Below, in pieces: positions 4,890 to 61,418 of a DNA stretch of 64,000 bases. The notes under the pieces were generated by a model that saw only the letters and a program-made list of their open reading frames with translations, did not search any database and was not told the DNA's origin. How positions within the stretch are numbered: the stretch's first letter is position 1; each line of letters begins with the position of its first letter. The stretch is taken from NCBI GenBank assembly GCA_025769875.1, contig JAGFNK010000275.1, positions 1 to 64,000 on the forward strand, given 5' to 3'. This stretch comes from Russula earlei. Lineage: Eukaryota > Basidiomycota > Agaricomycetes > Russulales > Russulaceae. The translations under genes were made by a program, and so were the position numbers.

Positions 4890-5103
4890 CGCTCATGCAC
4901 ACAAGCACCGTCTGTCTGCAACATCTGCATGAGATTGGTCAGTGGGCCTAATGAGACATACATCACTGAGCATGCAGCGTGCTCATGTAGAAAGTCAAGA
5001 GTGGCTTCAGGCATGGGACTATCTCTGATCTTGAGATGAGGGTGATTTTGAGTCGACTTGGAAAGGAAACCTGGTGGAAGGTTCAGCTCTGGGTGTGACT
5101 CTG
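4890..5103. other. unassigned spacer
   Basis: No gene or repeat recognised. It continues across the solo LTR into 5991-6187 as the pre-insertion sequence. No protein family could be assigned to either side. Confidence 0.4.
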
Positions 5104-20440: not shown

Positions 20441-21939
20441 CTTACACCTCCCGGGGGCTTGAAATTTTGAGCATCCCCAGTCAAACCTTCTTGACTGAGC
20501 TTCGGCCTTGTGCATGTGGTCTTGTCATCTCGTTGTAGAAGGGGGATGATGGGTGCTGAGGTGTTGTTGCATGTTGAACGTGGGTGCAGTGTGGCGAAGC
20601 AGGGGGCATGGTGTGCTTGCAGCATGTTGAATGTGTCATCGCACCTCATGGTGTTGCTGCTGAGATCTGCACTGCCCAGAGTCTCAGGTGTGTTGTGATG
20701 TGATCACAACTCAGATGTGCTGATGCGTTGGATCACCTGGACCGGGCATCACCGGCTCAGCTCATACGCTGCAGCACGCGTTAGTTACATTGATAGAGTG
20801 ATTTAGGACAATCGGTAGCTACTTACAACTGATCCTCGGACTTACTTAGTGATCCGTGATGGTAGTTAACTGTACTGCATCTAGTGGTGGTCTCAGGTAC
20901 TTAAGAACGCCACAAAGTACGTAGATCACTTCAGTTTTGTGTCAACCAAACTGAAGTGAGTATTTACACTGTGACATCTTATCTCACAGTACTGATGACG
21001 CGTTGTAGCTATTGTCTGATAGGTACATTATTTACTTCAGTTTTGTGTCAACCAAACTGAACTATTGTCTGATAGATCTGCCTGCGATCTTATCATCTGC
21101 TGCTATCGAATCACACATACTGCATCTATTTTCAACTGTTGCCAAGCGTTGGCCATATTGGTGCTGTTGCTGCTGCTGTTGAAACAGAGGTGATGGTGGC
21201 AGCAAGAGTGAGGGCAGTGGTGAGAGAGGGTGGAGGCATGGAAAGGCATGGGCATGGGGGCATGACTTGCGCATTGCTCATGCTGTTGTCTTGTGGGCAC
21301 AGCGATGAGGACTTTGCCACTGCAGGTGGTGGCAGCATGCATGGATGTGATGGAAGGGGAGGCAAGGTGCAGCATGGTGCTTGCGTCGGCAGTGTCTCCT
21401 GTAGCAACATCGTGGTGGCGGGGTCCAATTATTCTGCAGGACAGCATTGTGGCATCTGCTTCTCTGAGGTGGCGGTGTGTGTGCTCTTCATTTTCTGGTT
21501 ATCTGTGCGTTCTTTCTTGGCAGCGTAATGGCTAGAGATAGAAGTGTGAGAGCAGCATGGTCAGAAAGCAGAGTGGTGGCTGGGACTAGGCCCAGAACAG
21601 CAGCGGATGAGGCTGAGGGTGTGGTGGTGACAGCTGGCTGTGCTGGCGATATGGTGGATGTGACTGAGGAAGCTGAAGCTGAAGTGGTGGAGGACGAGAC
21701 TGAAATGGAGATGGGAGATGAAGAGGTGGTGGCTGGATGAGTTGGGCCTGAGGTGGCAGGCATAGACATGATGGCAGGAGTGGGTGATGTGGAGACTGGT
21801 GAGGAGAGCATGGGAGTGGATGACGCTGAGACAGTGGCTGGCCAGACAGAGATGGTGGCATGGGATGGAGCTGCAATAGGTGGAACATGTACGGTGACAA
21901 TGGAGACAGCTGGCAATGAGACTATTGAGGCGGCGATGG
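20441..21939 (-). mobile_element. W element internal region, CpG-depleted copy
   Basis: Begins with the W purine tract and LTR edge (ccttacacctcccggggg) and follows 45405-46800 base for base, but nearly every CpG of that copy is TpG or CpA here. It is interrupted by the C1 solo LTR (20658-21137) and by C2 at 21940. Open frames inside it are low-complexity shadows. It is the oldest visible layer of the nest. Confidence 0.85.
20658..21137 (+). repeat. C1 solo LTR (480 bp), TSD GTTGC
   Basis: Same length as the C1 3' LTR and about 97 percent identical by eye. The terminal TG is followed by C instead of T, and the last base is T instead of A. It is flanked by GTTGC at 20653-20657 and 21138-21142. 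The empty site is the W copy near 45610 (ggtgttgccaagcg). Confidence 0.95.
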
Positions 21940-26741: not shown

Positions 26742-26856
26742 TGTCACAAGAACTGGTACATCAGACCAGATCGGCAACCAGATATGCCTACCCAGACATG
26801 TCTCGAGTTTCTTGTGTGTTTCATGACTCAGTTAAAAGCCTCGCATGTACCAGACG

Positions 26857-27336
26857 TGTTGAAAATAGACGCAGTATGTGTGATTAGATAGCAGCAGATG
26901 ATAAGATCGCAGGCAGATCTATCAGACAATAGTTCAGTTTGGTTGACACAAAACTAATATAAATAATGTACCTATCAGACAATAGCTACAAGGCGTCGTT
27001 AGTACTGTGAGATAAGATGTCATAGTGTAAATACTCACTTCAGTTTGGTTGACACAAAACTGAAGTGATCTACGTACTTTGTGGCGTTCTTAAGTACCTG
27101 AGACCGCCACTAGATGCAGTACAGTTAACTACCATCACGGATCACTAAGTAAGTCCGAGGATCAGTTGTAAGTAGCTACCGATTGTTCTAAATCACTCTA
27201 TCAATGTAACTAACGCGTGCTGCAGCGTATGAGCTGAGCCGGTGATGCCCGGTCCGGGTGATCCGACGCGTCAGCGCATCCGAGTTGTGATCACATCACA
27301 ACACACCTGAGACTCTGGGCAGTGCAGATCTCAACA
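26857..27336 (-). repeat. C1 solo LTR (480 bp), TSD AGACG
   Basis: Reverse complement of the C1 LTR, exactly 480 bp, flanked by AGACG at 26852-26856 and 27337-27341. The 3' LTR of GyA near 38226 gives the uninterrupted sequence. Confidence 0.96.
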
Positions 27337-27412
27337 AGACGTTTCTTGTGTGTTCCAGTACAATCGCCTCATTGTTACCTCGTGAATACTATTTGATATG
27401 GTATTCTGTATG

Positions 27413-27458
27413 TATATAAGACTGCCATCTGATGAGAACAAGCCTTAAGCTTGTTCTC
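27413..27458 (+). promoter_or_regulatory. GyA LTR TATA box and R-region hairpin
   Basis: TATATAA at 27413-27419. A perfect 10-bp stem follows, GAGAACAAGC (27434-27443) and GCTTGTTCTC (27449-27458), with loop CTTAA. The 11-mer AAGCTTGTTCT (27447-27457) starts 34 nt after the TATA start, about where transcripts should begin. The 3' LTR has the same layout (TATA 38301, 11-mer 38335). Confidence 0.8.
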
Positions 27459-27723
27459 CTGTGAATATCACTGGATTCTTGCTTCAGAACTTGTAGGCTT
27501 GCAGGTAATCAAGCAATTGTCTCAGAAAACCTCCTATTCCTCTAAGTCTTCAAACACGAAGACTTATCATTTGTCTTTCCTCTCTGTGGTACACAATTGC
27601 CTTGGCATTGTCATCACCAAGATCCCTGAATCTCGTGAGAACTCTTTGTTCTCGCTCAACTCAGTGTGCATGTCTTGCGTGTGAATGGATTTGTCAGTGA
27701 CACCGCCCCCAGTCAGTGACATT

Positions 27724-27734
27724 AGAACAAGCTT
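27724..27734 (+). other. GyA self-complementary primer-binding site
   Basis: AGAACAAGCTT, two bases after the LTR end, is the exact reverse complement of AAGCTTGTTCT in the LTR. No TGG-initiated tRNA primer site is seen there. This matches the self-priming design known from Tf1/sushi chromoviruses. Confidence 0.75.
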
Positions 27735-27808
27735 CTCTCTCTTCGAACCCTCAACCCCAAACGCATATCCACGCATCCACCCTGAATACATCGATTTTCC
27801 TCTGAAAC

Positions 27809-29474
27809 ATGACTTCTATGGCTAGAGACTGGAGGTACAAGGGCCAAGGGAAACCCTCTGAACAAGGACTAGCCTTGCTTAGGCTTCCATTCAGAATAAG
27901 TCTAGACACCGACATCACCCTGGTTCCAGAACAATTTAGAAGGAATACTATATTTCGACAGCTCAGAGTAGATGCCACTCCCTGGACAGGATTCTTCACA
28001 CCCTACAAACAGGCAAAAGTAGCTCTTGGAACACTCTATGGAGTGTGGTTCGAGATCGAACAATGCGAAGACTATTTTGCAGCCATGCGCATCGCACACC
28101 TGATTTTCAAACTAACCTTTGATCCTCTTCCAGGATTAGACATGGATGCATTGGTTGCCTCAGGAGCACCAGTGCCACACTCTTCCCGAGCGTCAACTCT
28201 GGCACCTGCAGAAGTGATGGAACAAGAACACCCCACAACAACTCAAGTCTATGTTGCCGACGACGAACTGGACGCACCCATTCCACAGCAACTCGCATTG
28301 TCTGGTATGATGCGAGCCTTTCCCCGACCCAGCCAATTTCAAGGCTTCAGAGGATGTGGAAGACGACCTCCGAGCCCTGATCCCGATGACTACAACACAC
28401 ACGCCACTTACAGCTACAACGGATGCCCCTCCAACAATGGCAAACTCGAAGGTGTCCCTCCGAAAGCCTTCAATGGCAATCATGCATGCACCCACGCATT
28501 CCTCACCGCATTCCGACGCTTTATGAGGATGGACTTCAACAGCAAGATTGCCCAAAACCCCATTAAAAAATGTGCCTACTTCCTGTCACTTATGGAAGGA
28601 CCTCGCGTCGATGGATGGGTCAAAGCTATGGATGAATGGCTCAAAAAGGTCATGCACAACCCCGACAAGATCCCCTTTGGCCTCACTGCTTGGCATGCCA
28701 TGGAACAACAATTCAAATGTCCATTCACTGACTACACTGAACGTGAACGCATGCAAGATCAACTACGTGAGCTCAAAATGAAAGATAACAACTTGGATGA
28801 ATACATAGCTAACTTTGAACTGTTAGCACGTCGCGGATCCTTACACATGGACGACCTGATGGTTATGCGTCTCTTCACGTGTGGCCTTCCCAAACCCCTG
28901 GTCAAAGCCATTATTAGCCAGGAAGACCCCACCACCTTTCAAGAGTGGATCTCCAGTGCACAGAAACAACACCAGATCTGGATGCGCAAATGTGCAGTCC
29001 TTACGGATCACCAATACGCACAACCGCAACGCAAATCTGAACCACCTATGGGCTCGTCTTTCCACCTGGGGAACACACAGCAATGCCACCAACAACGCCA
29101 CTGTGCCTCACGCCCATCTCCCACCCTGCAATCCAAATGCAATGGATACCAGCACCAGCGCGGCATGCAAAGCCATCACCAAAGCCAACAAAGAAAAATA
29201 CCACACCAAAGGCAGGTGTTTCCACTGCTCAAAACAGGGACACCTCACCAGAGATTGCCCCACAAAACCAAAACACGAAATGACACACACACATGCGGCA
29301 GAGGTAACCACCACCACATCTGAATCCTCCGTTGTCAAGATCATCGAAGAGAGCATGACCGCTAAAGTCGCGAAGGCTGCTAAAGCCCTCTCTAAAGAAG
29401 AAAGAGAAGAATTCATCAAGATGCTGACTGGAGAAGCCGACAATGATGAGGAGAAGGATTTTTCGGACACCTGA
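27809..29474 (+). pseudogene. GyA Gag
   Basis: Starts at ATG 27809. The central capsid-like region includes KKCAYFLSLMEGPRVDGW and ELKMKDNNLDEYIANFELLA, the retrotransposon-gag fold region of gypsy elements. A frameshift between about 29060 and 29085 moves the C-terminal part into another frame. That part carries a CCHC knuckle, CFHCSKQGHLTRDC, near 29215-29260, and an acidic tail. It ends at TGA 29472-29474. GyB has the same organisation. Only the one frameshift separates it from an open Gag. Confidence 0.9.
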
Positions 29475-31682
29475 GCATATCGGCAATTGCTCAGGCCCTA
29501 GGTACTGCCAATGTATATAACACTATAAAGAAGTCAATGCAGGTCAATTTGACAATATACATTGGAACCTCAAAAGCCGAAAAGAAAGTTGTGTTGATCG
29601 ACAGTGGGGCAACCAAATGTTTTATCTCCCCAAAATTAACTAAAGAACTCCAACTAAAAACACAAGAACTGTCAACACCTAGGATAGTAAAAAATGTCAA
29701 CGATACTCCCAACCATCTAGGAAGAATCACCCAAGCAGTGGACCTAGAATTGAAACTATTAGGACAAAGAAGCAAACACCAATTCCTCATAGCAGACATC
29801 AGACAAGACGATCTAATCCTGGGATACCCCTTCCTTGGATCAACAAACCCCAAGATCAATTGGACCAAAGGAACATTAATGGGAAGGATAGTCCTATCCG
29901 GAGATAAAGAAATACCAGAGTGGATAAGAAACATCACTGAATGGGAAGAGGGCGATGAACTCTGGATACAAACTCAATTATGGAAGACTACGATTGCCCA
30001 ACAACTGGCAGAGGCCCAAATGGAATCGAAACAACTAACCTGGCAACAAATAGTCCCCCCTCAACATCACATCTACGGCCAAGTCTTTATGGAATGAGAA
30101 TCAGAAAGATTCCCTGGACCAAGAAAATGGGACCACACCATTGATCTCAAACCTGATGCCCCCACAACAATCAATTGTAGAGTATATCCTCTTTCACCCA
30201 AGGAAAAAGAGAAACAAGGAAAATTCCTTGAACAAAACCTACAATTGAAACGAATTAGAAGATCCAACTCACCATATGCGAGTGGCTTCTTTCTCATTAA
30301 AAAGAAGGATGGCAAATTCCGACCAGTACAAGACTACAGAAACTTGAACAAATGGACTATACCTAACGTCTATCCACTCCCCTTAATCCCAGAGTTGATA
30401 CATGCCCTGGCAGGCAAAGAACTGTTTACTAAGTTCAACATTAGATGGGGCTACAACAACATTAGGATTAAGGAAGGAGACAAATGGAAAGCCACCTTCA
30501 AAACCAGTGATGGATTATTCGAACAAATCATAATGTTCTTTGGACTAACCAATTCCCCAGCAACCTTCCAAACTATGATGGACGACATCTTTCAAGAAGA
30601 ACTCACCCAAGGATGGCTTAAAATTTATATGGATGACATCATCATTGCCACAAAAAACAATAAAGAAGAACACCAATCTAAAGTTGAACATATCCTATCA
30701 AAATTGAAACAACACGACTTGTACCTCAAACCAGAAAAATGTCAATTCCACAAAAAGAAGGTTGAATACCTAGGAGTAATCATTGGTGAAGGAAAAATCA
30801 CTATGGACCCAGTCAAAGTCAAAGGAATCAAAGACTGGCCTACACCAAAAATGTTAAAAGAAGTCCGAAGTTTCCTAGGGTTCTGCAACTTCTATCGCAA
30901 TTTCATTTCAAACTTCTCAATAAAAGCCAGACCCCTCAATGACCTAACAAAAAAGAACAGACAATGGGAATGGACACCCAAAGAAGAACAGGTGTTCCAA
31001 ACACTAAAAGATACATGTGTATCTTACCCAGTCCTATGAACTCCAGATTGGACTAAACAATTTATTCTCGACACTGATGCATCAGGATTTGCCATAGGAG
31101 CAGTCATTTCCCAAGAACATGAAGATGGACTCCATCCTATAGCATTTTATTCAAGAACATTACTAGATGCAGAAAGAAACCATGATGCACATGACAAAGA
31201 ATTAGCTGCCATCATTTTTGGTCTTAAAAGTGGCCGACCATTCTTCCTAGGCGAAGAAAAACCTGTTCAGATAAGAACAGACCACAAGAATCTTACATAC
31301 TTCAAAGAACCACACCAGACGACAAGCAAGGTGGATGCAATATATGCAAGACTTCAACATAACCATGGAACACGTCCCTGGACATACCCATACCATTGCT
31401 GACACACTTTCTCATCACAAAGACCTTAACAAGGGGGTAGAAGAACAAAAAACTACCCTCCTCCCACCTGAAATTTTTACACGGAAAATCTACCTACCTG
31501 ACAAGCTAGACAAATGACAAGAAATCTTACAACAATTCCATGACGCCCCACCTGCAGGACACCCTGGAATAGCCAATACATGGGACTTAGTCAAACAACA
31601 TTACAAAGGACCCAGATTACGACAGTTCGTAGAACAATACATAAAAGGTTGCGCCAAATGCCAAGAATCTAAAACTAACTTA

Positions 31683-33302
31683 CAGTGACCCAAAAAACCG
31701 TTCAAATGTTTTGTACATTTTCATTGTATTAACCATATCTAGAGAACCACTGCAGCTGATAACATGTTAGTGGGCTTGTTTTAAAGCTCTACATCATAGC
31801 TTTGTAATGAAATACTATATATACTATGAACATAATTATGTAAGAAGATATAAGGTATTTCTTCCAGTGTATCCATTTGAACAGTTTTTTTGCCTTGGTA
31901 TCTAAATAGGGTATATGCCAAAAATTAGTAGTTTGTGTACCCTCCATTTGCTTTGAACACCTCTTCCACCCTCCTAGGCATACTTTCTATCAAATTCTGC
32001 ACAACAGTTTGATCAATGGCCTCCCATTCCAGCTGTGTGCGCTCCCAAAGTACATTGATTCCCTTAGGGGGTGTTGGATAAGCTGCAAGCTTCTTTTTGA
32101 GATGAGCCCAAAGATGCTCAATAGGATTGAGGTCTGGGGATTGAGCTGGCCAGTCCATGACCTGAATTCTGTGGTCTTGGAACCAAGATGTGGCAAGCCT
32201 GCTCTTGTGGATAGAGGCATTGTCCTGTTGAAAGAGGGTATCTTTGCATTTCTTCTTGAAATACTTGATAGATGCAAGTAGTTCATCCTCCAAAATGCTG
32301 CAATAAAGTTCAGCATCCATCCTTCCATCAATCTTTGCTGCATGCCCAACTCCTTCCCAAGACATGCAGCCTCACAACATCAAGGAACCTCCTCCATGTT
32401 TGACTGTTGGCTGAACAAGGCATTCAGAAAGGTGCTCTCCTCTTTTTTTCCAAGCCCATTTCTTGCCATCTGAGCCCATACGATTGATTTTGGTCTCATC
32501 TGACCAAATTACCCTCTTCCAGTCCTCCACAGTCCAGTATAGGTACTTTTCTGCAAAGTCCTTTCTGGCCCTATAGTGACTTGGTTTAAGGTAAGGCCTC
32601 TTCTTCTTTGTAACTGCCTTCAAGCCTGCCTTGTTAAGGTAGTTTCGAATGGTCTGATTGGAGATAGTGGACTCTTTGATGACCTCCAACCTTCTAGCAA
32701 CCTGAGGTGCAGTATCTGCTTCTCCAGAGCTAAGAAGGCGTGTGGCAAAGCGGATGTCAAGGTTAGAGAGCTTGGAAGGACGACCTCCAGAGGACTTTGG
32801 AAGGTCAGGAAGGTATTTCTGGTGAATGTTGGTGATTGAACCAATGCTTCTGTGTGCTGCCTTGGCAATGTTACGAACTGAATGGTTGGCCTGGAGAAGG
32901 GAGATGATGTAGTTGACTTCATGAGGAAGAAGAGACTTCATGATGTTGTTGGTGAAGAAGAAGCAGCTGTTTTGGCTTATTTGCACATGGTTTGAGTTTA
33001 TTATAGGTCACATGACCTCCATGTTCGATTTTAGCCCTCTGGGGAAAGAATATGAATCTTAATCTGAGAAATAATGAATTCACTTACCAAGGCCAAAAAA
33101 CTGTTCAAATGGGTACACCAGCAAACATACCTTATATATTCCTAAACAATTATGCTTATGCTGTATAAAGTATACCATTACAAAGCTATGATGTAGAGCT
33201 TGAAAACAAATCTAGTTACATATTATTAGCTGCAGTGGTTCTCTAGATATGGTCAATACAATGAAAATGTACAAAACATTTGAATGGTTTTTTGGGTCAC
33301 TG
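31683..33302 (-). mobile_element. Tc1-type transposon (1620 bp), TSD TA
   Basis: Terminal inverted repeats begin CAGTGACCCAAAAAACC and extend about 85 bp with few mismatches. TA lies at 31681-31682 and 33303-33304. Removing the element rejoins the GyA integrase (KTN followed by RKKA). It encodes a DD34E transposase on the minus strand. This is the least decayed DNA transposon in the window. Confidence 0.97.
31925..32941 (-). pseudogene. Tc1 DD34E transposase with a single stop
   Basis: Minus-strand frame from ATG 32941 (an upstream in-frame ATG at 32986 is possible) to the stop at 31925. The HTH region includes SVRNIAKAAHRSIGSI and a GRPSKL motif. Catalytic residues are all present: WSDETK, QQDNASIH and NPIEHLW, with exactly 34 residues between the second Asp and the Glu. 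A TGA at 32372-32374 replaces the Trp of the conserved GGGS-M-WGC block, a G-to-A change, and is the only lesion. About 338 residues in total, the usual size for Tc1 transposases. Confidence 0.95.
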
Positions 33303-34989
33303 TACCAAGAAAAAAGGCCATGACCTTTCCACTTGACACACATGTGGAACAAGGCCCATTCCAATATGTATCGATGGACCTTATCACTGACCTACCAAAA
33401 TCAGAAGGATTTGACAGTATTCTCACCATCATCGATCAAGGATGTTCCAAAGCAACCAAATTCATTCCATGCACCAAGATGATTGATGGAACAGGTGTTG
33501 CACACAAGTATCTGAAACACCTCGTACCCTGGTTCAGAGTCCCGAAAAGAATCATATCTGACAGAGACCCCTGATTTGCATCAAATTTCTCCAGAGCCCT
33601 ATGCAAAAGTCTAGGCATCAAACAAAACATGTCAACCACATTCCACCCCCAAACTGACGGACAAACCAAAAGAATGAACGCTTGGCTAGAACAATACCTA
33701 AGACCCTGGACCACGACCCATCCACACTCCTGGGCAAAAATGCTCCCCATTGCGGAATATGCACACAATTCATGGAAACACAAGGTGTCACGACAATCAC
33801 CACACGAACTCCTCATGGGATTCAAACCCCAAATCAACATAAACCTTGAAGACAACAATGTTCCCGCCTCTACCAATCGCCTCAAAGAACTAGAACAATC
33901 TAGACATGACGCACAACAACTTTTAGAACATAAACAACAACCCCTAAGACCTGACGTCCCGGAAATGAAAGAAGGAACCCTTGTATGGTTAGAAAGCAAG
34001 AACCTCAAAACACGAGGAAACCGCAAACTAACACCAAAATGTTATGGACCCTTCCCCATCACCAAGAAAATTTCTAAAGTCACTTACCAACTCCATCTCC
34101 CATCATCTATGAAGATACATGATGTTTTCCACGTCAACCTACTCCTACCCTATATAGAAATGGAGGAATATGGCATGCCATTCACACAACCTCCTCCAAT
34201 CATCAATAACGAAGAAGAATACGAAATCAAAGCCATTCTAGATGCTAGAAGGTTCGGACAAACATGTAAACTTCAATACCTCGTACACTGGAAAGGTTAC
34301 CCAACATCAGATGACTCGTGGGTTGACCATCACAACCTCAATGCCCCAGAACTCCTAAAAGAATTCTACTCCACCACGGCTGGATGACCTAATGCATAAA
34401 AGGACCACTATTCCCAACCAACATTCCCCACCGCTCCTCCCTTCTCTCCAAACATCCTAACATGTCCTCAAATTCTAATTTACCCACTGCCTCCTCTGCT
34501 ACCCTCGTCCCCACTCCTCCATACACTCCAACCCTTATTCCCCTACCAATCTCTAGAGAACCATCACCATCCACAGCTGCGACCATCAATGCCCAACTCT
34601 TAGTGCGATGTGCTGCACGACTTGCTGCAATGATAGCACAAGCCCAAGAACTCTGGCATGAAGAGACTCTACCCACTATCCTACGAGCTTTCGGCAACCG
34701 CTCTCCTACCAGAGGGACTAACTCTCCAGTGGCTTGCAGTCTGTCCTACCACATTCATTCTCCCTCCCCCGATCCCATTCCTATCCCCCCTCGACTCAAC
34801 ACACCTATTCCTTAACAACCAATAAACCTAACCCTTCTCAACAAAAACTTTGTCCCAGCACCACCACTTGACAACAATATTCCTCCCCCTGCCTATGTAG
34901 CACCCATAGCTCCTGGAACAGATACTGTGGCTGAACTACGAGAACTAGGAGACAGCTGGATGGAAGGAAATCTGGGACTTGACATCTTA

Positions 34990-37364
34990 TTGCCGTTTTC
35001 AGCGCACTTGGTGGAGCTTGAATTCCACCCAAATCGGCGCAGAAACCCCCTCAAACATGCGGGATAAATATCTCCCTCAAACCAGCTTCAATTCATATGA
35101 AATTTATTGTCCCTGAATTGCCTGAATGAGGGCTAGGCAGCCCCATTGTTTTCATGAGATTTGAGTGAGAATTGGTGGAGCTGGACTCAAGCCACCTCCA
35201 CATGTGTATTAGATGAATTACAACTCAAAATCATGGTCTATATCTATTATTTTTCCCTCATGTTGTACCCATGGGCTGTCTTGAGGCAGCCCCATAGTGT
35301 TTTTGACTCAAGTGTTGTGGTGTGCAACGTTGTTTCCAGTGCAATTGGAGTCGTGGCCAGCCACTCATCACCCCTCTCGCCTCTCCATTCTGACCATCCT
35401 TTGCCCTCATTCCCACCACACCCGCTGTCTCAGACGCATCAGTCGCACCGCTCCCTTCCAACTCGCATTTGGCCCTCCACACCCACAGTTGCAGCCGTGC
35501 CAGTCACACTGCCCTCAGCCTCAGCCTTCTCAGTCTCAGCCGCCGCCACTGCGCCCCTAGTTTTGCCAGCTGTCTCCGTCGCCCCAGCTTCAGATCAGTC
35601 AACCACCACCACCATGCTCTTAGCCTTGCCAGCTGCCTTAGTCTCATCAGCCACCACCATAACCTCAGCCTCAGCCACCGACGTCTTAGCGCCACACGCC
35701 GCCATCTCCACCACCGTCTCACAAGCCACCGCCGCCACGCCCTTGTCAGCCACAGCCACCGTCGCCCCTGCATCGCCCTCAGTCGTCGCCTCCGCCCTGT
35801 CTGCCTCCACCGTCGCACCAGCTCAGTCTGCCGCCACCTTCTCAGTCTCAGCCTCAGTCTTCTCAGTCTCAGCCGCCGCTTTAGTAGTTTCGCGCGACAC
35901 CAGCACCGCCGCACCGCCACAACCCCTCGCCACCAGCACCACCCCAGAAGACCAAGAAGGCCTCGGCCATGAACTTAGCCATGACATGCCACAACAGGAG
36001 CAGAAGCCGCCGCCACGCTGCCAATGCCAACAGCACACCGCACACCGCCTCCCACATCGCCTCCCCATCCATTCGCGCGCTCTCACCCACGTCTGCTGCC
36101 AACACCTGCAGTGGAGATGACCCCACCACTGCCGCCGCAAGATGACAGATCCCACCCCCGCGGCAAGCCGCCCCACGCATCCTCTTTCTCGAGTCCTCGC
36201 CACCTACGTCCCTATCTACGAACTCATGCTCACCGCCTACGCCTTCGCTCCTCGTCCACACCTGCTGCCACCACCTGCAATGGAGACGACCACACCAGCA
36301 CCGCCACAAGACAACACCACCACCACACAGCCGCCATCTCGTCACTGCCACCCTTGTCTCCATCGCCTCCGTTTCCCATCCCCCTCGCCTCTTCCGTCAT
36401 CGCCATCGCCGATTGCCGCCTTCACATCTTCCGCAGCACAAGCAGCCACGACCACCGCCTCAATTCAGACGCGAAAGGCTCAAAACACTTGCATTCAGAC
36501 GCTTGACCAAGGACGGTCAAAGTTTCAAGCCCCCGGGAGGTGTAAGGAAGATTATGGCTGGCCTCAAAATCACATGCGAAAACGCGACACGACATGACAT
36601 GACACTGACACCTCAGCTCCCTTTCATCCCTTGCCACCTCCCTCTCGTTCCAGGCAGTCCACCGACTGCACACCACAAGCCATCTCGCGTGCGACATCAA
36701 GACCTCAATCGCATCGCCCAGCCCTCGCCACTGACCACACGCGCATGCACACCTCGGCACACTAGACGCATTCGCGTCTCAAGCCTTTCACAACCGCCTT
36801 GACCGTCTCAACCAGTCTTGATTCACTTTCATGCCTTTCATCTCTAGTACCTCTCTCCTGTATATAAAAACACCCTAGCTACTCTGTAGTAGAAAGAGTT
36901 CAGAATAGGACCCCTCTTTGCAACCCACTCCTCTCTGTCTGTGAAAAACAAGAAGGATGGTCAGAATTGAGAGGCAAGAGGGGTGATGAGTGGCTGGCCA
37001 CGACTCCAATTGCACTGGAAACAACGTTGCACACCACAACACTTGAGTCAAAAACACTATGGGGCTGCCTTAAGACAGCCCATGGGTACAACATGAGGGA
37101 AAAATAATAGATATAGACCATGATTTTGAGTTGTAATTCATCTAATACCCATGTGGAGGTGGCTTGAGTCCAGCTCCACCAATTCTCACTCAAATCTCAT
37201 GAAAACAATGGGGCTGCCTAGCCCTCATTCAGGCAATTCAGGGACAATAAATTTCATATGAATTAAAGCTGGTTTGAGGGAGATATTCATTCCGCATGTT
37301 TGAGGGGGTTTCTGCGCCGATTTGGGTGGAATTCAAGCTCCGCCAAGTGCGCTGAAAATGGCAA
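34990..37364. mobile_element. Foldback element with 411-bp TIRs carrying a W-like LTR fragment, TSD TA
   Basis: Arms 34990-35401 and 36954-37364 are inverted repeats of each other at about 96 percent by eye, beginning TTGCC and flanked by TA on both sides. Joining the flanks gives a sequence that aligns without gaps to GyB near 54515, so the TA duplication is confirmed. The centre 35402-36953 is GC-rich and related to W elements. It includes the W purine tract (36527-36540) and a 410-bp LTR-like segment 36541-36950 with TATATAAA near 36857. The 319-codon frame at 35161 is Ala/Ser-rich low complexity, not a gene. No transposase is present. Confidence 0.88.
36541..36950 (+). repeat. W-related LTR inside the foldback element
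   Basis: Follows agcccccgggagg directly and starts TGTAAGGAAG, like the W LTR start TGTAAGGTATG. It ends gtgaaaaaca at the arm boundary. Its body differs from the W LTRs at 45089 and 61419, so it is a subfamily. Confidence 0.6.
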
Positions 37365-38101
37365 TAATTCCTGACCCAGGAAACAAAGATGATACCATCC
37401 CCCCCACAGTTCGTCTTACCTGATTTAACTAACAGGTTTCCATCAATCGTCACAACTTATGGCCCTGGATGCCCTACTCATTGAATCTCAGTCCAAGCTC
37501 GTGCTGAGCCTTACCCTCGTCCTCTCCTCACAACAAAAGATGCCTTCCTGTTCTGAGAAGGACTCAAACACACCAAAGCCGTAAACGAGGCCCTCACTTT
37601 TGAGGAAGACTTGTCTCTTGAAGCTGAAGTCCTTCGTTACCGATTCGCTATCAAAAAGGCGCAACAAATGGCTAACCAACTTGTCACAGCTAGAGGATGC
37701 TACCACGACATGTTGTGGGAGATTCGAGACAGTGAAGTCAAGTTGGCAAGGGCCAATGCTAAAACCCGGCTCAAGCCTAGAATTTTTTTTCAATCCATGC
37801 CACAGTTGACTGAACAGGAGCATAAAGACACCAAAGAAGCAATTATGGACCCATGGTATCAATTTTCCCCCCACACCTCTGACAGATGCTCCTGGTGTCT
37901 TGACGGCGGACATGACATCGTCGACTGTCCCAAAATCACTACCTGCATCCTCTGTAATCGCCATGGACACAAGGCAGATCTTTGCAGGACCCCACACCGA
38001 TGATGCAAACCACACAAAATATGCTGAGTTCCCCAAGATCAACTTCACAACCATACTCACCACTGTGTTTCCAACATTCACCCCTACACAGGTTAGACCT
38101 T

Positions 38102-38114
38102 AACAAGGGGGTAA
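38102..38114 (+). other. GyA polypurine tract
   Basis: aacaagggggtaa directly upstream of the 3' LTR. GyB has the same tract at 52803-52817 on the minus strand. Confidence 0.85.
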
Positions 38115-38609
38115 TGTCACAAGAACCGGTACATCAGACCAGATCGGCAACTGGATAAGCCTACCCAGACATGTCTCAAGTTTCTCACGTGTTTCATGAC
38201 TCAGTTAAAAGCCTCACATGTACCAGACATTTCTTGCGTGTTCCAGTACAATCGCCTCATTGTTACCTCGCGAATACTATTTGATATGGTATTCTGTATG
38301 TATATAAGACTGCCATCTGATAAGAACAAGCCTTAAGCTTGTTCTCCTGTGAATACAGTATCACTGGATTCTTCCTTCGGAACTTGTAGGCTTGCAAGTA
38401 ATCAAGCAATTGTCTCGGAAAACCTCCTATTCCTCTAAGTCTTCGAACGCGAAGACTTATCGTTTGTCTTTCCTCTCTGCAGTACACAATTGCCTTGGCA
38501 TTGTCATCACCAAGATCCCTGAATCTCATGAGAACTCTTTGTTCTCACTCAGTGCACACGTCTTGCACATGAACCAATTTGTCAGTGACACTGCCCCCAG
38601 TCGGTGACA
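38115..38609 (+). repeat. GyA 3' LTR (495 bp)
   Basis: Starts TGTCACAAG, ends GTCGGTGACA. It contains TATATAA at 38301 and the 11-mer AAGCTTGTTCT at 38335-38345. Confidence 0.95.
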
Positions 38610-44827: not shown

Positions 44828-45088
44828 ATGTGGTGTGGTTTGAAGGGTGGCATGTTTGAATCAAAGGTTAAAGCTATTCGTATTCTGGAAGAGCTGGAAG
44901 CTCATGCAGCACAAAATGGTGCCATACTTGATATTCATGAGAAAATACAATTTCTTGAGCAAACATGTGATCTAACATGTGATGTGAAATTACCATATAT
45001 AGAAGGAGGGGGGGCAATTCCACACTGAAACAGAAGTTCTGACTGTATATGTAAAATGCCAATTCCACCACCACCTTGGCTCATGCAC
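44828..45088 (+). other. Coding-like fragment of unknown family, copy 1
   Basis: An open frame reaching 45028 ends in a charged helical stretch (ILDIHEKIQFLEQTCDLT) and KLPYIEGGG. The same fragment is at 61165-61418, so it is part of a repeated block next to the W LTR. Family not recognised. Confidence 0.45.
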
Positions 45089-47716
45089 TGTAGCACACCA
45101 GGTCAGGGCACCCAGAGTTCAGTGGGCTTGATCCGAGGGTGGGTACAGACAGAGAATAACAGAGGGGAGCAAGCACCTCACATGCAGTTGTTTGGCTTCT
45201 TGGCTTTTGCAGGCAGGTGTGAGAGGTACAAAAGAGAATCCATTCATCCAGAGGGTGGGAGGACAGGAGGCAGGAGGCATGATGAAAGGAATCTAGACTA
45301 AGAGATGATGAAAGAAAGGGGGCATAGGGAATAATAACTCGAAGACGACGCGTGCATGGGGGCAAGGACAGGTCACATGATTTGTGCTCAGCCGGATCAC
45401 ATACCTTACACCTCCCGGGGGCTTAAAATTTGACCCATCCCCAGTCAAACCTTCTTGAGTGAGTCTTCGGCCTGGTGCGCGCGGTCTTGTCGTGTCGTCG
45501 CAGAAGGGGAATGGCGAGTCGTCGCGTGTTGAACGCGGGCGCGGTGTGGCGAAGCAGGGAGCTGGTGTGCTTGCGGCGTGTCGAAAGTGTCGTCGCGCCT
45601 CGTGGTGTTGCCAAGCGTCGGCCGTGCTATTGCTGTCGATGCAGAGACGATGGCGGCAAGGGCGAGGGCGGTGGTGAGAGAGGATGGCGGCGCCGGAGGG
45701 TGAGGGTCGTGGGAGACGAAGGCGACGGAGAAGAGGGTGAGGACGGTGGCGAGATGGCGGCGGACGTGGAGGTGGAAGATGCGTGGGGCGGCTTGCGCGG
45801 GGGTGGCGTTTGTCGTCTTGCGGCGGCGGTGGCGGGGTCTTCTCCACTGCAGGTGGCGGCAGCAGACGTGGGCGAGAGCGCGTGAACGGACGGAGAGGCG
45901 ATGTGGGAGGCGGCGTGCGGCGCGATGTTGGAGGCGGCGGGGGCTTCTCCTGCGGTGACGGCGTGACGGCGGCGTGTGATCTTCCTGCGGGGTAGCGTTG
46001 TGGCATATGCTTCTCTGAAGCGGCGGCGTGCTCTTCGTTTTCCAGTTATCTGTGCGTTCTTTTTCGGCTGTGCGAGGCGGCGTAACGACTAGAGACGGAA
46101 GTCAGAGGGCGGCGTGGTCAGAAAGCAGAGCGGTGGCTGGGACTAGGCCCGGAACGGCGGTGGACGAGGCTGAGGGCGTGGTGGCGACGGCCGACTGAGC
46201 TGGGCTTGAGGCGGCGGGCGGCGCTAAGACGTCGGTGGGCGAGGCTGAGGCTACGGGTGCGGCGGTGCGCGAGACGACGACTGGGGCGGCGACGGGAGGC
46301 GTAGAGGCGGTTGGCAATGCCGAGGCTGAGACTGGGGGCGCGGAGGCTGTGGCTGACGCGGACGTAGAGGAGACGAGTGAGGGCACGGCGGCGGACGAGA
46401 CGAAGGCCGGGGTGGCAGACGAGGCTGAGGCGGCTGCTGCTGGTGGGGCTAACAGCGCGGCGGCGGCTGGCGATGCTGGAGATACGACGGTGGACGAGAC
46501 TGGAATGACAATGGAAGGAGGAGGGACGGTGGGCGAGGCAGGCAGGGCTGGAGCTTGGGCAGATGCGGCAACGGACGGCACTGGGTGCGAGACGGCGGTG
46601 GACGAAACTGGAGCGATGGCAACAGGCAGGGCAGGTGGGGCGATGGCGATGGCGACTGGAGGAGCGGAGGCACTCGAGGGTGAGGCGACGATAGACAAGG
46701 TTGGAGGTGCGGGAACCGCAGGGACGACGGGAGCGGGAGACGTGAAGGGCGATGACGGGCGACGCTGGACGTGCGGAGACGGCAGGGACGACGGACAAGG
46801 CAGGTGAGGCGGAGGCGATGGTGCACGACGTAGGGACGGAAGCTGGAGCGGGCATGGGCGTAGGGAAGGTGTAATCGTCTTCGTCGTCGTCGAGAGAGCC
46901 GAGTTGGCGTTCCCATGGATGTCGCGAGGGTCTTGAGAGCAGATGTCGACAGCGGTGTCGAATACCTCTCAGAAGTCGATATAGATTTTTCGTCGCTCGT
47001 CCATGCGCCAGGGGTCGAGTCGTCGTGAAATCGTCTTGCGGTCGTCCGGGTGGAGTCCGAGCCAGAACAGCTCGTCGCAATCTTCATGGGATAGGCGGCG
47101 TAAACGTACAAGGGGTCCGCATAACGCTCTGAAACTGCCGTGATACTGAAGGACATCTTCCCGGTCGCGCATGCGACGTCGTGATGAGGCGGCCATATAG
47201 CCTTCGAGATCCCGGTCATAGTACCGGTTGGGAATCGGCATGATGGCTAGTGTGATCGGAACGTGGCGAGGGTGTGTCGTGTTGGCGGGATGTTGGCGTG
47301 CGCGACGGGCAAGAGAGGGATGAAAGTAGGGAGTGAGGATACTACTAGCGGGAGGAAGAAGGACGCGGGGACGATGAGAGAGAAGGAGGGTGTGATATAA
47401 TGATGAAACGCAGCGAGTGGACTGAGCAATGGGGCCACGGGAGGGCTCGACGCCGTTTCGCGTGATTCGCCAGTGCAGATGGTGTGCTTGCTCGTAGGAC
47501 GTGTTGCCCGAGGCAACTGGGGCGAGGAAGTTGAATGGAAACAGGGGGAGTCAGGTCAACTCGGATCACCGCCTCACTGGGGCAGCCAGTTTGTAGCGCG
47601 CCAGGTCGGGGCACACGGAGTTCAGTGGGCTTGATCCGAGGGCGGGTACGGACAGAGAAGAACAGACGGGGAGCAAGCACCTCGCGCGCAGTTGTAGGCA
47701 GGTGTGAGAGGTACAA
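45089..47716 (-). mobile_element. W element copy 1: non-autonomous, GC-rich LTR retrotransposon
   Basis: The 3' LTR is at 45089-45410 (minus strand: TGTAAGG...GTGTGCTACA). A purine tract aagcccccgggagg is next to it. The internal region is 45411-47591. A 5' LTR beginning (plus sense) TGTAGCGCGCC at 47592 is truncated at about 47716. The only coding potential is a gag-like ORF followed by Ala/Ser/Pro-rich sequence; no protease, RT or integrase. CpG content is high and undecayed. A possible primer site, tggctgccccag, follows three bases after the LTR. Confidence 0.8.
46102..47241 (-). pseudogene. W gag-like ORF, copy 1
   Basis: Minus strand from ATG 47241: about 90 codons rich in Arg with LVRLRRLSHEDCDELFWLGL and LHPDDRKTISRRLD, which resembles the capsid-region helix pattern of fungal retroelement Gag proteins. 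A TGA follows KIYIDF at about 46969-46971, then EVFDTAVDI continues in frame, then a Pro/Ala/Ser-rich tail after a frameshift. Copy 2 has the same TGA. Gag assignment is by pattern only. Confidence 0.6.
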
Positions 47717-52312: not shown

Positions 52313-52802
52313 TGTCACCAACTGGGGGTGGTGTCACTGACAAATCATTTCACCCACGAGACATACGCACTGAGTTGGGTAAGATGACAAGTTCTCACAA
52401 AAGTTGGGAATCTCGGTGACAACAGTGAAGGCTAGTGTGTACCGTGGAAGAGAAATATAATGAATAAGTCCTTGCATTCGAAGACTTGGAGAGATGAAAG
52501 AATTTCTGAGATGATTGCTTGATTTCCTGCAAGCCTACAGTCCAGAAGCTGAATCCAGTGATATTTCACAAGAGAACAAGCTTAGGGCTTGTTCCCTTCT
52601 ACTGACAGGTTTATATAGACAAATATGTCCTATATCAAATGATAGGCATGAGGTAGCAATGAGACAATCGGAACTGAAACACGCTGGAAGGTAGTGGTAC
52701 ATGTGAGGCAAATGAGTCATGAGAACATGCGGGCATCATGAGGCTAGTCTGGGTAGGCTTGTCCGGTTGCTGGTCCGGTCCGAGATGCCAATACTTGTGA
52801 CA
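52313..52802 (-). repeat. GyB 3' LTR (490 bp)
   Basis: Inverted TGTCAC/GTGACA ends. The purine tract ttaacaagggggtga lies next to it at 52803-52817 (minus). Confidence 0.93.
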
Positions 52803-52820: not shown

Positions 52821-55031
52821 CTAAGCGGTGTAAGGGATGATGGTGGAGTGGCAGCGATGAGTGTGGAAATGGAGTTGGTCGCGGGGAACTCGACACATTC
52901 TGTCGGTTTTGCATGGCCGGTGTGGATTTCTGCAGTGGTCGGCTATATGTCCATGACGATTGCAGAGGACGCAGATGGCAATTTTGGGGCATTCAAAAGT
53001 GTCGTGCCCTCCGTCATGACACCAAGCACATTTGTCAGAGAGTCGAGGGGAGAACTGGTACCATGGGTCCATCAAGGCTTCTTTGGCATCCTTGTGTTCT
53101 TGATCGGTGAGTTGGGGCATGGTCCCAAATAAGACTCATGGTTCGAGACGAGCTTTGGCATTAGCCTTGGCTAGTTTGACTTCTGAATCCCTTACTTCCC
53201 ATACCATGTCATTGTCAAGACTCACTGTTGAACTATCCAGTTCAAGAGCGAGGGATAAGCTCGAAGATGAGTCGGTAGACGTCCAAGACTGCGTGGGCAA
53301 GGAGTAGAGTCCAGAGTAGTAACAAATACCAGAGAGGTATTGTTACTGTGAGAGTAGAACAGTCACGCAGGGAAGAGGCCAGGATAGTCACAAGGGGATG
53401 GTCCTTAAAGGAGTATCCCAGGGATGGAGAGTGCCGTAAACAAATGGACAGTCTGAGGACTGTCCGCTACTTTATTGAGCGCTTATATACTACAAGAGAA
53501 CTGCTAAATAGGGAACAAGTCATAACCTTGTTATCAAGCACAATAGAGTGATGAGTAAGAAGTCGGAGGATGCTTACTGAGCATGCTCAGTCATGCTCAG
53601 TAAGCTGCTGAATAAGAAGACTCTTCTTGATGAGTAAGAGCTTCCATTGTCCACGTGTTCACTGCTTTAGTGCACGTGCAAGCACCTGATTCATTTCCTG
53701 TTAGTTAGTTTAGGGCCGGTCATTTGAGGACTTGTAGTTTGGTTATGGAATAGTGTTATCTTATAAGGCCCTTATATAGTTCTATTAGGGTCCTTAGAGT
53801 CGACCCTAATACTTCTATTAAGGTCCTTAGTGTTGCCTTATAGTTCGTTCTATAGTTATTAGAGTTGGTCTAATAACGCGTTGCAGGGCCTTTGATACTA
53901 GGTTAGTACCTATTGTAGAGTTCCTAGGGTCGTTCCAAAGGGTCCTTAGGGAGGCCCTAATACTGTCTTTTGTTGCTAGAAGGGTTGCCTTTAAGTGGGG
54001 CTTGCTGTATGTTGATTGTGCCGAGAATCGCTCGCGCAACAATGCGCGCGCGATATTGTGGACACCTCTACTCACCCGTTTTGCTCGTGTGAACAGGGTG
54101 ACACCATAGAGGCTGGGTTTCCTCCTATAAGGAAGGGTCCTTCAAGGGCCCTCTCCGGAGAATGGTTCATGACAGTCATGATATCTTTCTCGAGCGGTGA
54201 CGAGGCTGTTTGCCATTTGTCATACCTTTTTTATGGTGAACCGATAGCAACGTACTTCAGCCTCTAGGGACAGGTCCTGTTCGAACCTGAGTGCTTCATT
54301 TATTGCCTTGGTATGTCTAAGGCTGTCTTTGAACAGGAAGGCATCCTTCTGTGAGAGGAGAGGGCGAGGGTAGGGGTCGGCTCATGCTCGAATAGGTATG
54401 TGGTGAGTAGGGCATCCAGGGCTGTAAGTGGCTAGCAAGGAGGGGAAACCGTGTGTAAGGTTGGGAAGGACAAAGCGAGGGGGAAGTGTGTCATCTTCAT
54501 TGCCTGGGTCTGGGATTAGTAGGTCAAGTCCTAGATTTCTTCCCATCCTTCTCCGAGTTCCTCCAGTTCTGAAAGTTGGGTGCAGTTAGCAGGTGGTTCA
54601 TAGATGGGGGGTGGTGTTCCCTCATGGTTTACTTGGGCGAAGTTTTCATTGAGCAGGATGACGTTTTCGGCCTGTTTGATGATGGGAGTGGTTGTTCGTG
54701 GAGGGATTGGAATGGGATCAGGCGATGGGGAGTGGACGTGGTAGGAAGGGCTACAGGTTCTGATGGGAGAGTTGGTTCCTTGTGTGGGGGATTGATTGCC
54801 AAAGGCGCATAGTATGGTGGTGAGAGAGTCGTCTTCCCATAGTTTGTGTGCTTGTACAATCATTGCGGCGTGTTGTGCAGCACGTCAAATGAGTAGTCTA
54901 GTGTTAATGGTCACTGCTGTTGAAGGGGATGGTTCTCTGGACAGCGGTAGATGAATGAGCGCAGGAGAGTAAGGTGGAGTGGGTACAAGAGTAGTGGTGG
55001 AGGTAGCAGGAGAGTTTTGTGTGGAGGACAT
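52821..55031 (-). pseudogene. GyB third ORF (ORF3) with two CCHC zinc knuckles
   Basis: Minus strand from ATG 55031 (MSSTQNSPATS), 53 nt after the Pol stop, to about 52821. N-terminal Pro/Ser/Thr-rich, then an acidic segment with ELEELGEGWEEI, a helical middle with LSLEAEVRCYRFTIKK and VKLAKANAKARLE, and two CX2CX4HX4C knuckles, CAWCHDGGHDTFEC (53030-52989) and CVLCNRHGHIADHC (52973-52932). Lesions include a TGA near the N terminus, a TAG after WEEI, and further stops in the helical part. The L1 LTR lies inside. Net length about 414 codons, matching GyA ORF3 from end to end. Confidence 0.82.
53213..54174 (-). repeat. L1 solo LTR (962 bp), TSD GTCAT
   Basis: Minus-strand L1 LTR flanked by GTCAT at 53208-53212 and 54175-54179. 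Its removal rejoins the helical part of GyB ORF3. Confidence 0.95.
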
Positions 55032-55083: not shown

Positions 55084-58000
55084 TTATATCTGGGGTCGTC
55101 CAGCTGATGCGGAATAATATTCTTTTAGAAGTTCTGGGGTGTTAAGGTCATGGTGGTCGACCCAGGAGTCATCTGATGTAGGGTATCCTTTCCAATGTAC
55201 AAGATATTGAAGTTTACGTGTTTGTCCAAACCTTCTGGAGTCTAGAATCACTTCAATTTCATATTCTTCCTCGTTTTCAACAGTCGGTGGGGGGTGTGTA
55301 AACGGTGTGCTGTATTCTTCTGTCTCCTTATAAGGGAGGAGTAAATTGACATGGAAGACGTCATGTATCTTCATTGACGGTGGGAGTTGTAATTGATAGG
55401 CGACTTTGGAAATTCTTTTTGTGATAGGGAATGGGCCATATCTTTTAGGCATTAACTTGCGTGTTCCTCGTGTTTTGAGGTTCTTTGCTTCTAGCCATAC
55501 GAGGGTTCCATCTTTCTTCCATTTCCTTGACGTCAGGTTTTAGGGGTTGTTGTTTGCGTTCTAGAAGTTGTTGTGCATCCCGTCTTGCTTCTTCTAGTTG
55601 TTTTAGGTGATTGGTGGATGAAGGCACGTTGTTGTCTTCTAGACTAATGTTAATTTGGGGTTTGAATCCCATGAGAAGTTCATGTGGTGATCTTTGTGAT
55701 GTCTCATGTTTCCATGAGTTATGTGTGTATTCCGCTAAAGGAAGCATTTTTGCCAAGGAATGAGGATGGGTCATGGTCCAGGGTCTTAGGTATTGTTCTA
55801 GCCATCCATTCATTCTTTCTGTTTGTCCATCAGTTTGGGGGTGGAATGCGGTGGACATGTTTTGTTTGATGCCTAGATTTTTGCATATGGCTTTGGAGAA
55901 GTTTGATGCGAATTGAGGGTCCCTGTTGGAGATGATTCTTTTGGGAATACTGAACCAGGGTATGAGGTGTTTCAAATACTTGTGTGTGATGCCTGTTCCA
56001 TTGATTGTTTTGTTGCATGGGATGAACTTTGTCACTTTGGAGCATCCTTGGTCAACAATGGTGAGGACACTGTTGAATCCTTCTGATTTAGGTAGGTCAG
56101 TGATGAGATCCATTGATATGTATAGAAAGGGGCCTTGTTCAACGTGTGTGTCAAGCGGGAAAGTTGTGGCTTCTTTCTGGGTATGTTGGTTTTAGATTCT
56201 TGACATTTGGGGCACCCTTTGACATATTGTTCTATGAACTGTCATAGTCTAGGTCCTTCGTAATGTTGTTTGACTAAATCCCAGGTGTTAGCTATTCCTG
56301 GATGTCCTGCAAAGGGGGTGTTGTGGAATTGTCTCAAGATTTATTGTTGTTTGTCAGGTTTGTCTGGTAGGTGGGTTTTTCGTGCGAAAATTTTGGGTGG
56401 TAATAGTGTGGTTTTTTGTTCTTCTACCCCCTTGTTAAGGTCTTTGTGACGAGAAAGTGTGTCCGCAATTGTGTGTGTGTGTCCAGGGACGTGTTTCGTG
56501 GTGATGTTGAAATCTTGCATGTATTGCATCCATCTGGCTTGTTGTCCTGTTAATTTTTGTGGTTCTTTGAAATAGGTGAGATTTTTATGGTCCGTCCTTA
56601 TTCTGACTGGTTTATTGGCTCCTAGGAAGAATGGTCGTCCACTTTTTAGTCCGAAGATTACTGCTGCTAATTCTTTGTCATGTGCGTCATAATTTCTTTC
56701 TGCATCCAATAATGTCCTAGAATAGTATGCAATTGGGTGTAGACCATCTTTGTATTCCTGGGATATGACTGCTCCAATGGCAAATCCTGATGCATCAGTA
56801 TCTAGAATGAACTGTTTTGTCCAATTCAGGGTGCAAAGTACTGGGTAGGATACGCAAGTTTCTTTTAAGATCTGAAAGGCTTGATCCTCTTTTGTTGTCC
56901 ATTCCCATTGCTTATTTTTCTTTGTCAAGTCATTCAATGGTCTGGCTTTTATGGAGAAGTTGGGTATGAAGTTTTGATAGAAGTTGCAGAATCCCAAGAA
57001 ACTTCTGACTTCCTTTAATGTCAATGGGGTTGGCCAATCTTTAATTCCTTCGACTTTGACGGGATCCATAGTTATTTTTCCTTCTCCTATAATCACTCCA
57101 AGGTATTCTACCTTTCTTTTGTGGAATTGGCATTTTTCTGGTTTGAGATAGAGGTTGTGTTGTTTTAATTTGGATAGTATGTGGTTGACTTTAGACGTAT
57201 GTTCTATTTCATCATTTTTTGTGGCGATGATGATGTCATCCATGTAGATTTTCAACCATCCTTGTGCGAGCTCTTCTTGAAAAATGTCGTCCATCATGGT
57301 TTGAAAGGTGGCTGGAGAGTTTGTCAGTCCGAAGAACATTACCGTCGGTTCAAACAGCCCATCGCTAGTTTTGAAGGCTGCTTTCCACTCATCTCCTTCT
57401 TTGATCCGGATATTGTTGTAATCACATCTAATGTTGAATTTTGTGAAGAGTTCCTTTCCTGCTAAGGCATGGATAAGCTCTGGGATCAGGGGCAGTGGAT
57501 ATACATTAGGTATCGTCTATTTCTTTAGATTCCTATAGTCTTGTACCAGTCAAAATTTACCATCTTTCTTCTTTATAAGAAAGAATCCACTAGCATATGG
57601 CGAATTGGACCTTCTTATTTGTTTAAGCCATAAATTTTGTTCGAGAAATTTCCCTTGTTCTTCTTTTTCTTTAGGTGAAAGAGGATACACTCTGCAGTTG
57701 ATCATTGTTGGGGCGTCTGGTTTTAGGTCAATAGCGTCATCCCATTTTCTTGGTCCAGGAAATCTTTCTGATTCTTGTTCCATAAACACTTGTCCGTATT
57801 GATGGTATCAATGGGGAACTATTTCTTTCCAGGTTTTAGGTTTATCCTGTATTTGTGAGTCCACTAGTTGTTGAGCTATGGTAGTTTTGTGTATTTGAGT
57901 TTGTAGCCATAGTTCATCTCCTTCTTCCCAGTCCATCAACGCTTTAATCCATGCTGGTGTTTCTTGGTCTCCTGAGAGGGTAATCCTTCCCATCATGGTC

Positions 58001-58398
58001 CCTTTGGACCAGTTTATTCTTGGATTGGTCAATTCTAGGAATGGGTATCCCAGGATGATGTCGTCTTGTCCTATGTCTGCAACTAATAATTGATGTGTGT
58101 GTCTTTGTCCCAATAGTTTCAAATCTAAGTTGACAGTTTGAGTGATTTTTCCTAAACGATTGAGCATTCCATTGACATTTTTGACGTTCCTGGCTGGGGT
58201 TAACTTTCTAGTTTGTAGGTGTAGTTCCTTTGTCAACTTGGGAGATATGAAGCATTCGGTGGCTCCACTGTCTATCAGAGCCTTTCTTTTGGCTTTGTTC
58301 GATCCAATGTAAATAGTAGTCATCACTGATATTGATTTTCTTTGAGACTTGTACATGGAGTTGATACCTAAAGCTTGAGCAATCACCGTTATGCTCAA
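55084..58398 (-). pseudogene. GyB Pol: protease, RT, RNase H, integrase, chromodomain
   Basis: Minus strand. Protease has LIDSGATECFIS near 58265. A short gap with stops lies before RT near 57800. RT runs through KIYMDDIIIAT near 57240 and RNase H (ILDTDASGF, TDHKNLTYF) to 56341 with only a few stops. The integrase zinc-binding region and core follow. The second catalytic Asp is Asn (ISNRDP) while the Glu is kept (DGQTERMN). A frameshift near 55510 precedes the chromodomain with YLVHWKGYPTSDDSW. RT is better preserved than in GyA. Confidence 0.95.
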
Positions 58399-61164: not shown

Positions 61165-61418
61165 TGTGGTGTGGTTTGAAGGGTGGCATGTTTGAATCAA
61201 AGGTTAAAGCTATTCTGGAAGAGCTGGAGGCTTGTGCAGCATAAAATGGCACCATACTTGATATTCATGAGAAAATACAATTTCTTGAGCAAACATGTGA
61301 TCTAACATGTGATGTAAAATTACCATATATAGAAGGAGGGGGGGCGATTCCATGCTGAAACAGAAGTTCCAACTGTATATGTAAAATGCCCATTCCACCA
61401 CCACCTTGGCTCATGCAC
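61165..61418 (+). other. Coding-like fragment of unknown family, copy 2
   Basis: Matches 44828-45088 with a 6-bp deletion and a stop. It starts exactly at the GyB LTR edge. Confidence 0.45.

Follow-up and report, generated by a model that had tools for sequence, protein, structure and literature searches.

A selected third open reading frame behind Pol in chromoviruses of Russula earlei and its predicted Pol-fused homologue in a second family

Fungal chromoviruses are usually drawn as gag-pol elements only. In a stretch of 64,000 nucleotides from the basidiomycete Russula earlei (positions 1 to 64,000 of the forward strand of contig JAGFNK010000275.1, assembly GCA_025769875.1; hereafter the window), two chromoviruses, GyA and GyB, carry a third open reading frame (ORF3) shortly behind Pol. 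ORF3 is under purifying selection, and profile comparison indicates that a second chromovirus family of the same genome carries an ORF3 homologue fused in frame behind the chromodomain. It is very probable that the ORF3 protein has a part in the element's life cycle. Judging from sequence, we see an about even chance that ORF3 is an accessory-protein gene of the chromovirus lineage, neither a relic nor a host gene, whose product would bind nucleic acid, act with Pol or its integrase and recruit a ubiquitin ligase of the NEDD4 type.

We searched the host assembly (66.6 Mb, 1374 contigs) with an intact ORF3 as the query and obtained 102 matches, scored among 677 first-look candidates, which represent at least about 101 further copies, as one copy is split into two matches. 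Using a rule that required at least 390 codons and the knuckle motif, 24 distinct intact genes of 415–418 amino acids were read from 45 distinct family loci (L001–L028 and L030–L048, where L002/L009 and L004/L010 are the same places). Given this number of copies, 24 of them distinct and intact, ORF3 is no chance reading frame. The ratio of nonsynonymous to synonymous substitution rates (dN/dS), calculated by the Nei–Gojobori method, has a median of 0.075 among 20 genes of subfamily B (190 pairs, range 0.033–0.159) and of 0.066 among the four genes of subfamily A (6 pairs). Between the subfamilies it is 0.114, with 79 of 80 pairs computable and silent sites near saturation. When the same 14 copies were compared, ORF3 gave 0.078 (91 pairs) and the integrase/chromodomain end of Pol 0.065 (78 of 91 pairs). 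Third codon positions hold 67% of the substitutions in ORF3. A chance or decaying reading frame is ruled out by these ratios.

The gene is also found beside Pol. The earlier note had proposed, from GyA and GyB, that the reading frame was kept by the lineage. This is borne out by a dN/dS of about 0.07, not near 1, by the presence of ORF3 sequence downstream of Pol in all 26 distinct family loci selected by Pol, GyA included, and by a Pol end immediately upstream of ORF3 in all of 19 further loci. The 26 loci were the best eight by similarity to GyA and 18 with a stop-free Pol end, and a few of their ORF3s are partial, being cut by an insertion or lying where the locus ends; most of the 19 were picked by their ORF3 matches, so that neither set is a random sample. 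The concern that intact relatives might lack ORF3 did not materialize in these loci, and a gene restricted to two copies is ruled out by the assembly copies and the loci that pair ORF3 with Pol, to which relatives elsewhere can be added. Within 150 Pol-end copies listed from the assembly, stops appear to be mainly TGA, which may reflect C-to-T decay at CpG.

The spacer between the Pol stop and ORF3 measures 49–68 nucleotides in 38 distinct copies, and 74 in GyA. Relative to Pol, ORF3 lies in phase 0, 1 and 2 in 8, 6 and 7 copies, respectively (21 intact copies scored). Because all three phases occur, neither readthrough from Pol nor one fixed frameshift can be the general route to ORF3, and both were rejected. 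ORF3 starts at its own ATG, which is preceded by a purine at position −3 in 37 of 38 copies, and the spacer is poor in G (6%) and weakly structured. Reinitiation after Pol is the expression route that we favour.

A profile search for relatives returned five proteins at E ≤ 1, namely P0001 from R. earlei and the metagenomic proteins P0002–P0005. P0002–P0004 have both the middle and the zinc end of ORF3 (31–35% identity); P0005 ends before the zinc end. The gene model of P0001 is ORF3-like in its first 191 residues, while the remainder is unrelated and internally repeated; the model may be chimeric or represent a fusion in the host. Neither ORF3 nor the Pol end, scanned against IMG/VR, yielded relatives. 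Used as queries in the host genome, P0004 and P0003 found ORF3-like places at 27–39% identity, and no further element family was recognized at the level of these match lists.

Along its length, ORF3 has a proline-rich linker with a PPPxY motif, a charged middle, a helix predicted to be long, a pair of CCHC knuckles and a third cluster of Cys and His residues. Of these, PPPxY and the third cluster go beyond what the earlier note described. PPPxY is present in 23 of the 24 intact copies; P140, P141 and Y144 are invariant in all 24, and the residue before the tyrosine varies. The motif sits in the most variable stretch of the protein, where dN/dS is 0.38 (alignment codons 121–160). PPxY occurs in seven of eight representative sequences, with a shuffle chance of 8–18% for each, and is carried by the relatives P0001, P0003, P0004 and P0005. 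The third cluster, with the pattern PHxxCx5C...H...C, was found in 23 of the 24 intact copies. A likely reader of PPxY exists in the host, as three loci (on contigs C75 and C23, two of them close together on C23) each show three WW domains followed by HECT matches. A fold model of P0003, built from five sequences, contains a helix of 61 residues, mostly at moderate confidence; almost everything outside it, a small beta-rich region included, has low confidence. No transmembrane segment was found, the maximal hydropathy over 19 residues being 0.65–1.08 in seven of eight sequences and 1.66 in P0005, and these maxima rule out an env-like ORF3.

The second family was first met in locus L026, where the Pol frame continues beyond the chromodomain, and produced 138 matches scored among 739 candidates. 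In 12 of the 20 loci fetched, an uninterrupted frame leads from the chromodomain into about 560 more residues. PPSY and PPFY are present in all 12 modules read; a CCHC knuckle is followed by PHxxC and more Cys/His residues, an end that is lost by a frame change in L063. dN/dS in this family is 0.064 (42 of 45 pairs). In HHalign comparisons, a profile of ORF3 with its metagenomic relatives matched the second-family module with a probability of 97.3% and a score of 89, the maximum in 100 block shuffles being 34.6. The first-family profile by itself gave no more than a suggestive match (probability 59.6%, score 41.9, against a shuffle maximum of 36.6). As a query in a protein search, the module found no relatives among 7992 candidates. 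A third family, found by a Chromo family search, stops soon behind the chromodomain, and within 2 kb behind it two loci contain no plus-strand frame of at least 50 codons with a knuckle (a third locus offers only 387 bases). That chromoviruses normally end at the chromodomain, as the earlier note had it, agrees with the third family here and disagrees with the second, with its fused module. Compared over 243 columns, the three families are 44–49% identical at their integrase ends. The second and third are closest, so that by this measure the two ORF3-bearing families are not mutual nearest relatives, a distribution that could be due to loss or to transfer of the module.

These features suggest how the protein may work. 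ORF3 would be made at a low level by reinitiation after Pol and may oligomerize through its long helix, while the knuckles and the third Cys/His cluster could bind RNA or complementary DNA (cDNA) of the element. As one family makes it in the Pol frame, ORF3 would act together with integrase or Pol, and its PPPxY motif may recruit a ubiquitin ligase of the WW-HECT (NEDD4/Rsp5) type to the particle or pre-integration complex. The fused form favours a role within the particle or this complex over that of a free suppressor. A bolder version, which we advance only tentatively and judge to be rather unlikely, is that ORF3 and the fused module belong to an old, previously unrecognized protein family of fungal chromoviruses, occurring as a third reading frame or as a C-terminal extension of Pol, which would bring a NEDD4/Rsp5-type ligase to the nucleoprotein complex of the element.

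Several observations weigh against this picture of an accessory protein. Silent divergence in ORF3 is about twice that in the integrase piece of the same 14 copies (0.85 versus 0.43). The spacers do not avoid ATG beyond chance (4 of 38, against a shuffle mean of 6.3; P 0.2), and a YAG in 16 of 38 spacers makes splicing a possible route to ORF3. The two knuckles of the 24 intact copies are there by construction, since the motif was used in finding the genes. Pfam zf-CCHC went unmatched at E ≤ 10 on two ORF3s and on P0001, where nothing exceeded the cut-off; at E ≤ 1, the sole match on four relatives was an AIR2-like ZnK4 at 0.38 on P0002, below the cut-off. P0002 is also the relative that lacks PPxY. 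In the PDB the nearest matches, with E values of 0.04 or worse, are mostly nucleocapsids of retroviruses. The fold model of P0003 is poor overall, with a mean predicted local distance difference test (pLDDT) score of 55.9 and a predicted template modelling (pTM) score of 0.25, and Foldseek returned 0 matches for it at E ≤ 0.001. Finally, it is the middle region that carries the homology between ORF3 and the second-family module. The knuckle part by itself is not significant, with probabilities of 0.2 to 14%, and the second family has one knuckle versus the two of ORF3.

Other functions would draw on parts of the same evidence. The earlier note had offered a second nucleocapsid, an RNA chaperone and a silencing counter-factor as candidate roles. 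As a silencing counter-factor, ORF3 would be an RNA-binding protein, free in the cytoplasm, that protects the RNA of the element or blocks RNA interference or another host defence. Its motifs are of an RNA-binding type, and the accessible text of PMC11728184 proposes that an additional ORF of the plant chromovirus Tekay modulates RNA silencing. However, the second-family homologue is made in the Pol frame, an improbable location for a free suppressor if it is not cleaved away, and Pfam recognized no known family in ORF3 or its relatives; we consider this role quite unlikely. The PPxY motif may instead point to a late-domain protein that couples particles to NEDD4 and the endosomal sorting complex required for transport (ESCRT) for membrane passage, by a cell-to-cell or cell-fusion route. 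This would agree with the retention of PPxY across relatives only about 31–35% identical, with the WW-HECT loci of the host and with a GyA Gag frame that holds neither PPxY nor P(T/S)AP, in the one broken Gag inspected. Retroviral PPxY late domains engage NEDD4-type ligases, according to the accessible part of PMC2940739. Since ORF3 shows no transmembrane segment, no envelope gene was noticed and PPxY serves ordinary ubiquitination too, such a role nonetheless seems improbable.

The position of ORF3 directly behind the chromodomain, and the in-frame fusion in the second family, would also suit a nuclear, DNA-acting factor for the targeting or stability of integrase, whose zinc cluster and helix bring integrase to chromatin beside the chromodomain. 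We doubt this, as ORF3 is a separate protein in the first family and the third family is without it in two loci examined. A duplication of the element's own Gag, giving an ORF3 with a nucleocapsid end, would account for the CCHC knuckles common to both proteins. Compared with GyA Gag by HHalign, the ORF3 profile gave probabilities of 0.5% and 0.8%, a comparison of low power with one broken Gag, and we regard such a duplication as very improbable. The reading as an accessory protein that acts with Pol and recruits a ligase is the one we prefer to all of these.

Comparison with known systems gives likenesses on several sides. ORF3 shares its CX2CX4HX4C knuckles and a weak PDB similarity with retroviral and Ty3-type nucleocapsids, and the CCHC motif of a nucleocapsid is present in both GyA and GyB. 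In contrast to those proteins it lies behind Pol and outside Gag, as a separate 3' reading frame or Pol extension; it also has PPPxY, a predicted long helix and a third Cys/His cluster, and its knuckles find no Pfam match. The additional ORFs of plant Tekay and Athila elements (PMC11728184) likewise add to gag-pol a conserved protein that is proline-rich and largely disordered, and one such case belongs to a chromovirus clade; the Tekay ORF, however, is on the 5' side, an Athila 3' ORF has a membrane segment, and the accessible text mentions no knuckles. Long terminal repeat (LTR) elements of bdelloid rotifers (PMC5408684, in its accessible text) have an ORF3 behind pol, and one ORF3 type can recur across element lineages, but these are env-like proteins, a GDSL esterase, a DEDDy exonuclease and others, and no chromodomain was found in the rotifer elements.

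The Figure 3 legend of PMC2864245 mentions Gypsy elements of fungi that possess, besides gag and pol, an additional ORF of unknown function, which may or may not be ORF3. Most full-length elements have one or two ORFs according to the same source, as far as its accessible text goes, and chromoviruses make up most Gypsy elements in fungal genomes in the corresponding part of PMC3248453. A literature search, judged by titles and the beginnings of abstracts and with figures and supplements outside its scope, found no paper describing the ORF3 protein. A selected extra protein, occurring in one genome both as its own reading frame and as a Pol extension, means that chromoviruses can need a further function. 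The fused form narrows down where this function takes place, and the conserved PPPxY allows a simple and direct binding test. If a ligase-recruiting family of this kind existed, it would imply that elements regarded as strictly intracellular pass through a step linked to ubiquitin and ESCRT during their life cycle.

In the window, GyA lies on the plus strand. Its 5' LTR is in two parts, at 26742–26855 (92% identical over 115 nucleotides to the start of the 3' LTR) and 27334–27721 (91% identical over 393 columns to 38222–38609). The repeat that splits it, at 26856–27333, has near-identical inverted copies at 4410–4891 and 20658–21136. A Gag frame of 504 residues follows at 27809–29323 (PF03732, E 1.3e-7); this single, broken frame was scanned and contains no PPxY, P(T/S)AP or CCHC. 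A separate knuckle at 29217 lies in a non-Gag frame, so Gag is frame-shifted there, near its end. Pol, at 29537–34387, is in pieces that cover protease, reverse transcriptase, the C-terminal SH3 of integrase and the chromodomain, with PF08284, PF00078, PF24626 (SH3 beside integrase) and PF00385 (E 4.1e-10) on separate open frames. PF00078, PF24626 and PF00385 identify the element as a chromovirus; a core-integrase match was absent among the Pol pieces scanned with Pfam.

The spacer of GyA occupies 34388–34461. The N-terminal part of its ORF3, at 34462–34989, is Pro/Ser-rich and contains PPPAY and a premature stop at 34813–34815. It is interrupted by a TA-flanked inverted-repeat element of 2.4 kb (about 34990–37364; 415-nucleotide arms, 98% complementary). 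The C-terminal part (37365–38093) holds the middle region, the long helix, the two CX2CX4HX4C knuckles (at 37887 and at 37944) and the third Cys/His cluster. Further premature stops occur here, one of them at 38003, and the third cluster lies downstream of it. ORF3 ends a few bases upstream of a purine-rich tract and the 3' LTR (38115–38609).

GyB is on the minus strand, between a 5' LTR at 60673–61164 and a 3' LTR at 52313–52802, the latter 91% identical to the copy at 60673–61162. A further LTR at 59934–60430, 77% like that of GyA, sits inside GyB near its 5' LTR. Pol is in pieces at 55084–58398 (protease, reverse transcriptase, RNase H and integrase end), with Pfam matches on 57808–58398 and 56341–57339, none on the piece at 55445–56113, and the stop at 55086–55084. 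ORF3 begins at an ATG at 55031, 52 nucleotides past the Pol stop, and ends at 52821. Its N-terminal part (54175–55031) contains PPPIY, premature stops and a frame change. An ATGAC-flanked solo LTR of another element, with related repeats elsewhere in the window, is inserted at 53213–54174, and the C-terminal part (52821–53212) has one premature stop, the third Cys/His cluster and the two CX2CX4HX4C knuckles, at 53030 and 52973. A separate knuckle is found at 58646.

The earlier note had described, in both elements, a protein-coding frame 50–75 nucleotides past the Pol stop with a Pro/Ser-rich start and two CX2CX4HX4C knuckles, and the spacers and translations agree with it. Its limits for ORF3 are right for GyB and for the start of GyA, and too short at the GyA end, where the frame runs to 38093 rather than 38003. 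A knuckle of Gag's own, which it also described, does exist apart from ORF3 in both elements, but the one in GyA is outside the Gag frame. What did not survive is the view of GyA and GyB as independent diverged elements. Their 3' LTRs are 72% alike, compared with about 91% for the LTR pair within each element, and their Pol ends are 77–82% alike at the DNA level, which makes them two subfamilies of one family rather than unrelated elements; both ORF3 copies, moreover, are broken.

Elsewhere in the window, two long copies at 44881–47695 and 61211–63870 are 94–98% alike, and the first contains three frames of 237–320 amino acids without a Pfam match. An open Copia-type frame of 1055 amino acids, with Gag-like, integrase and RVT_2 matches, extends from 627 to 3794.

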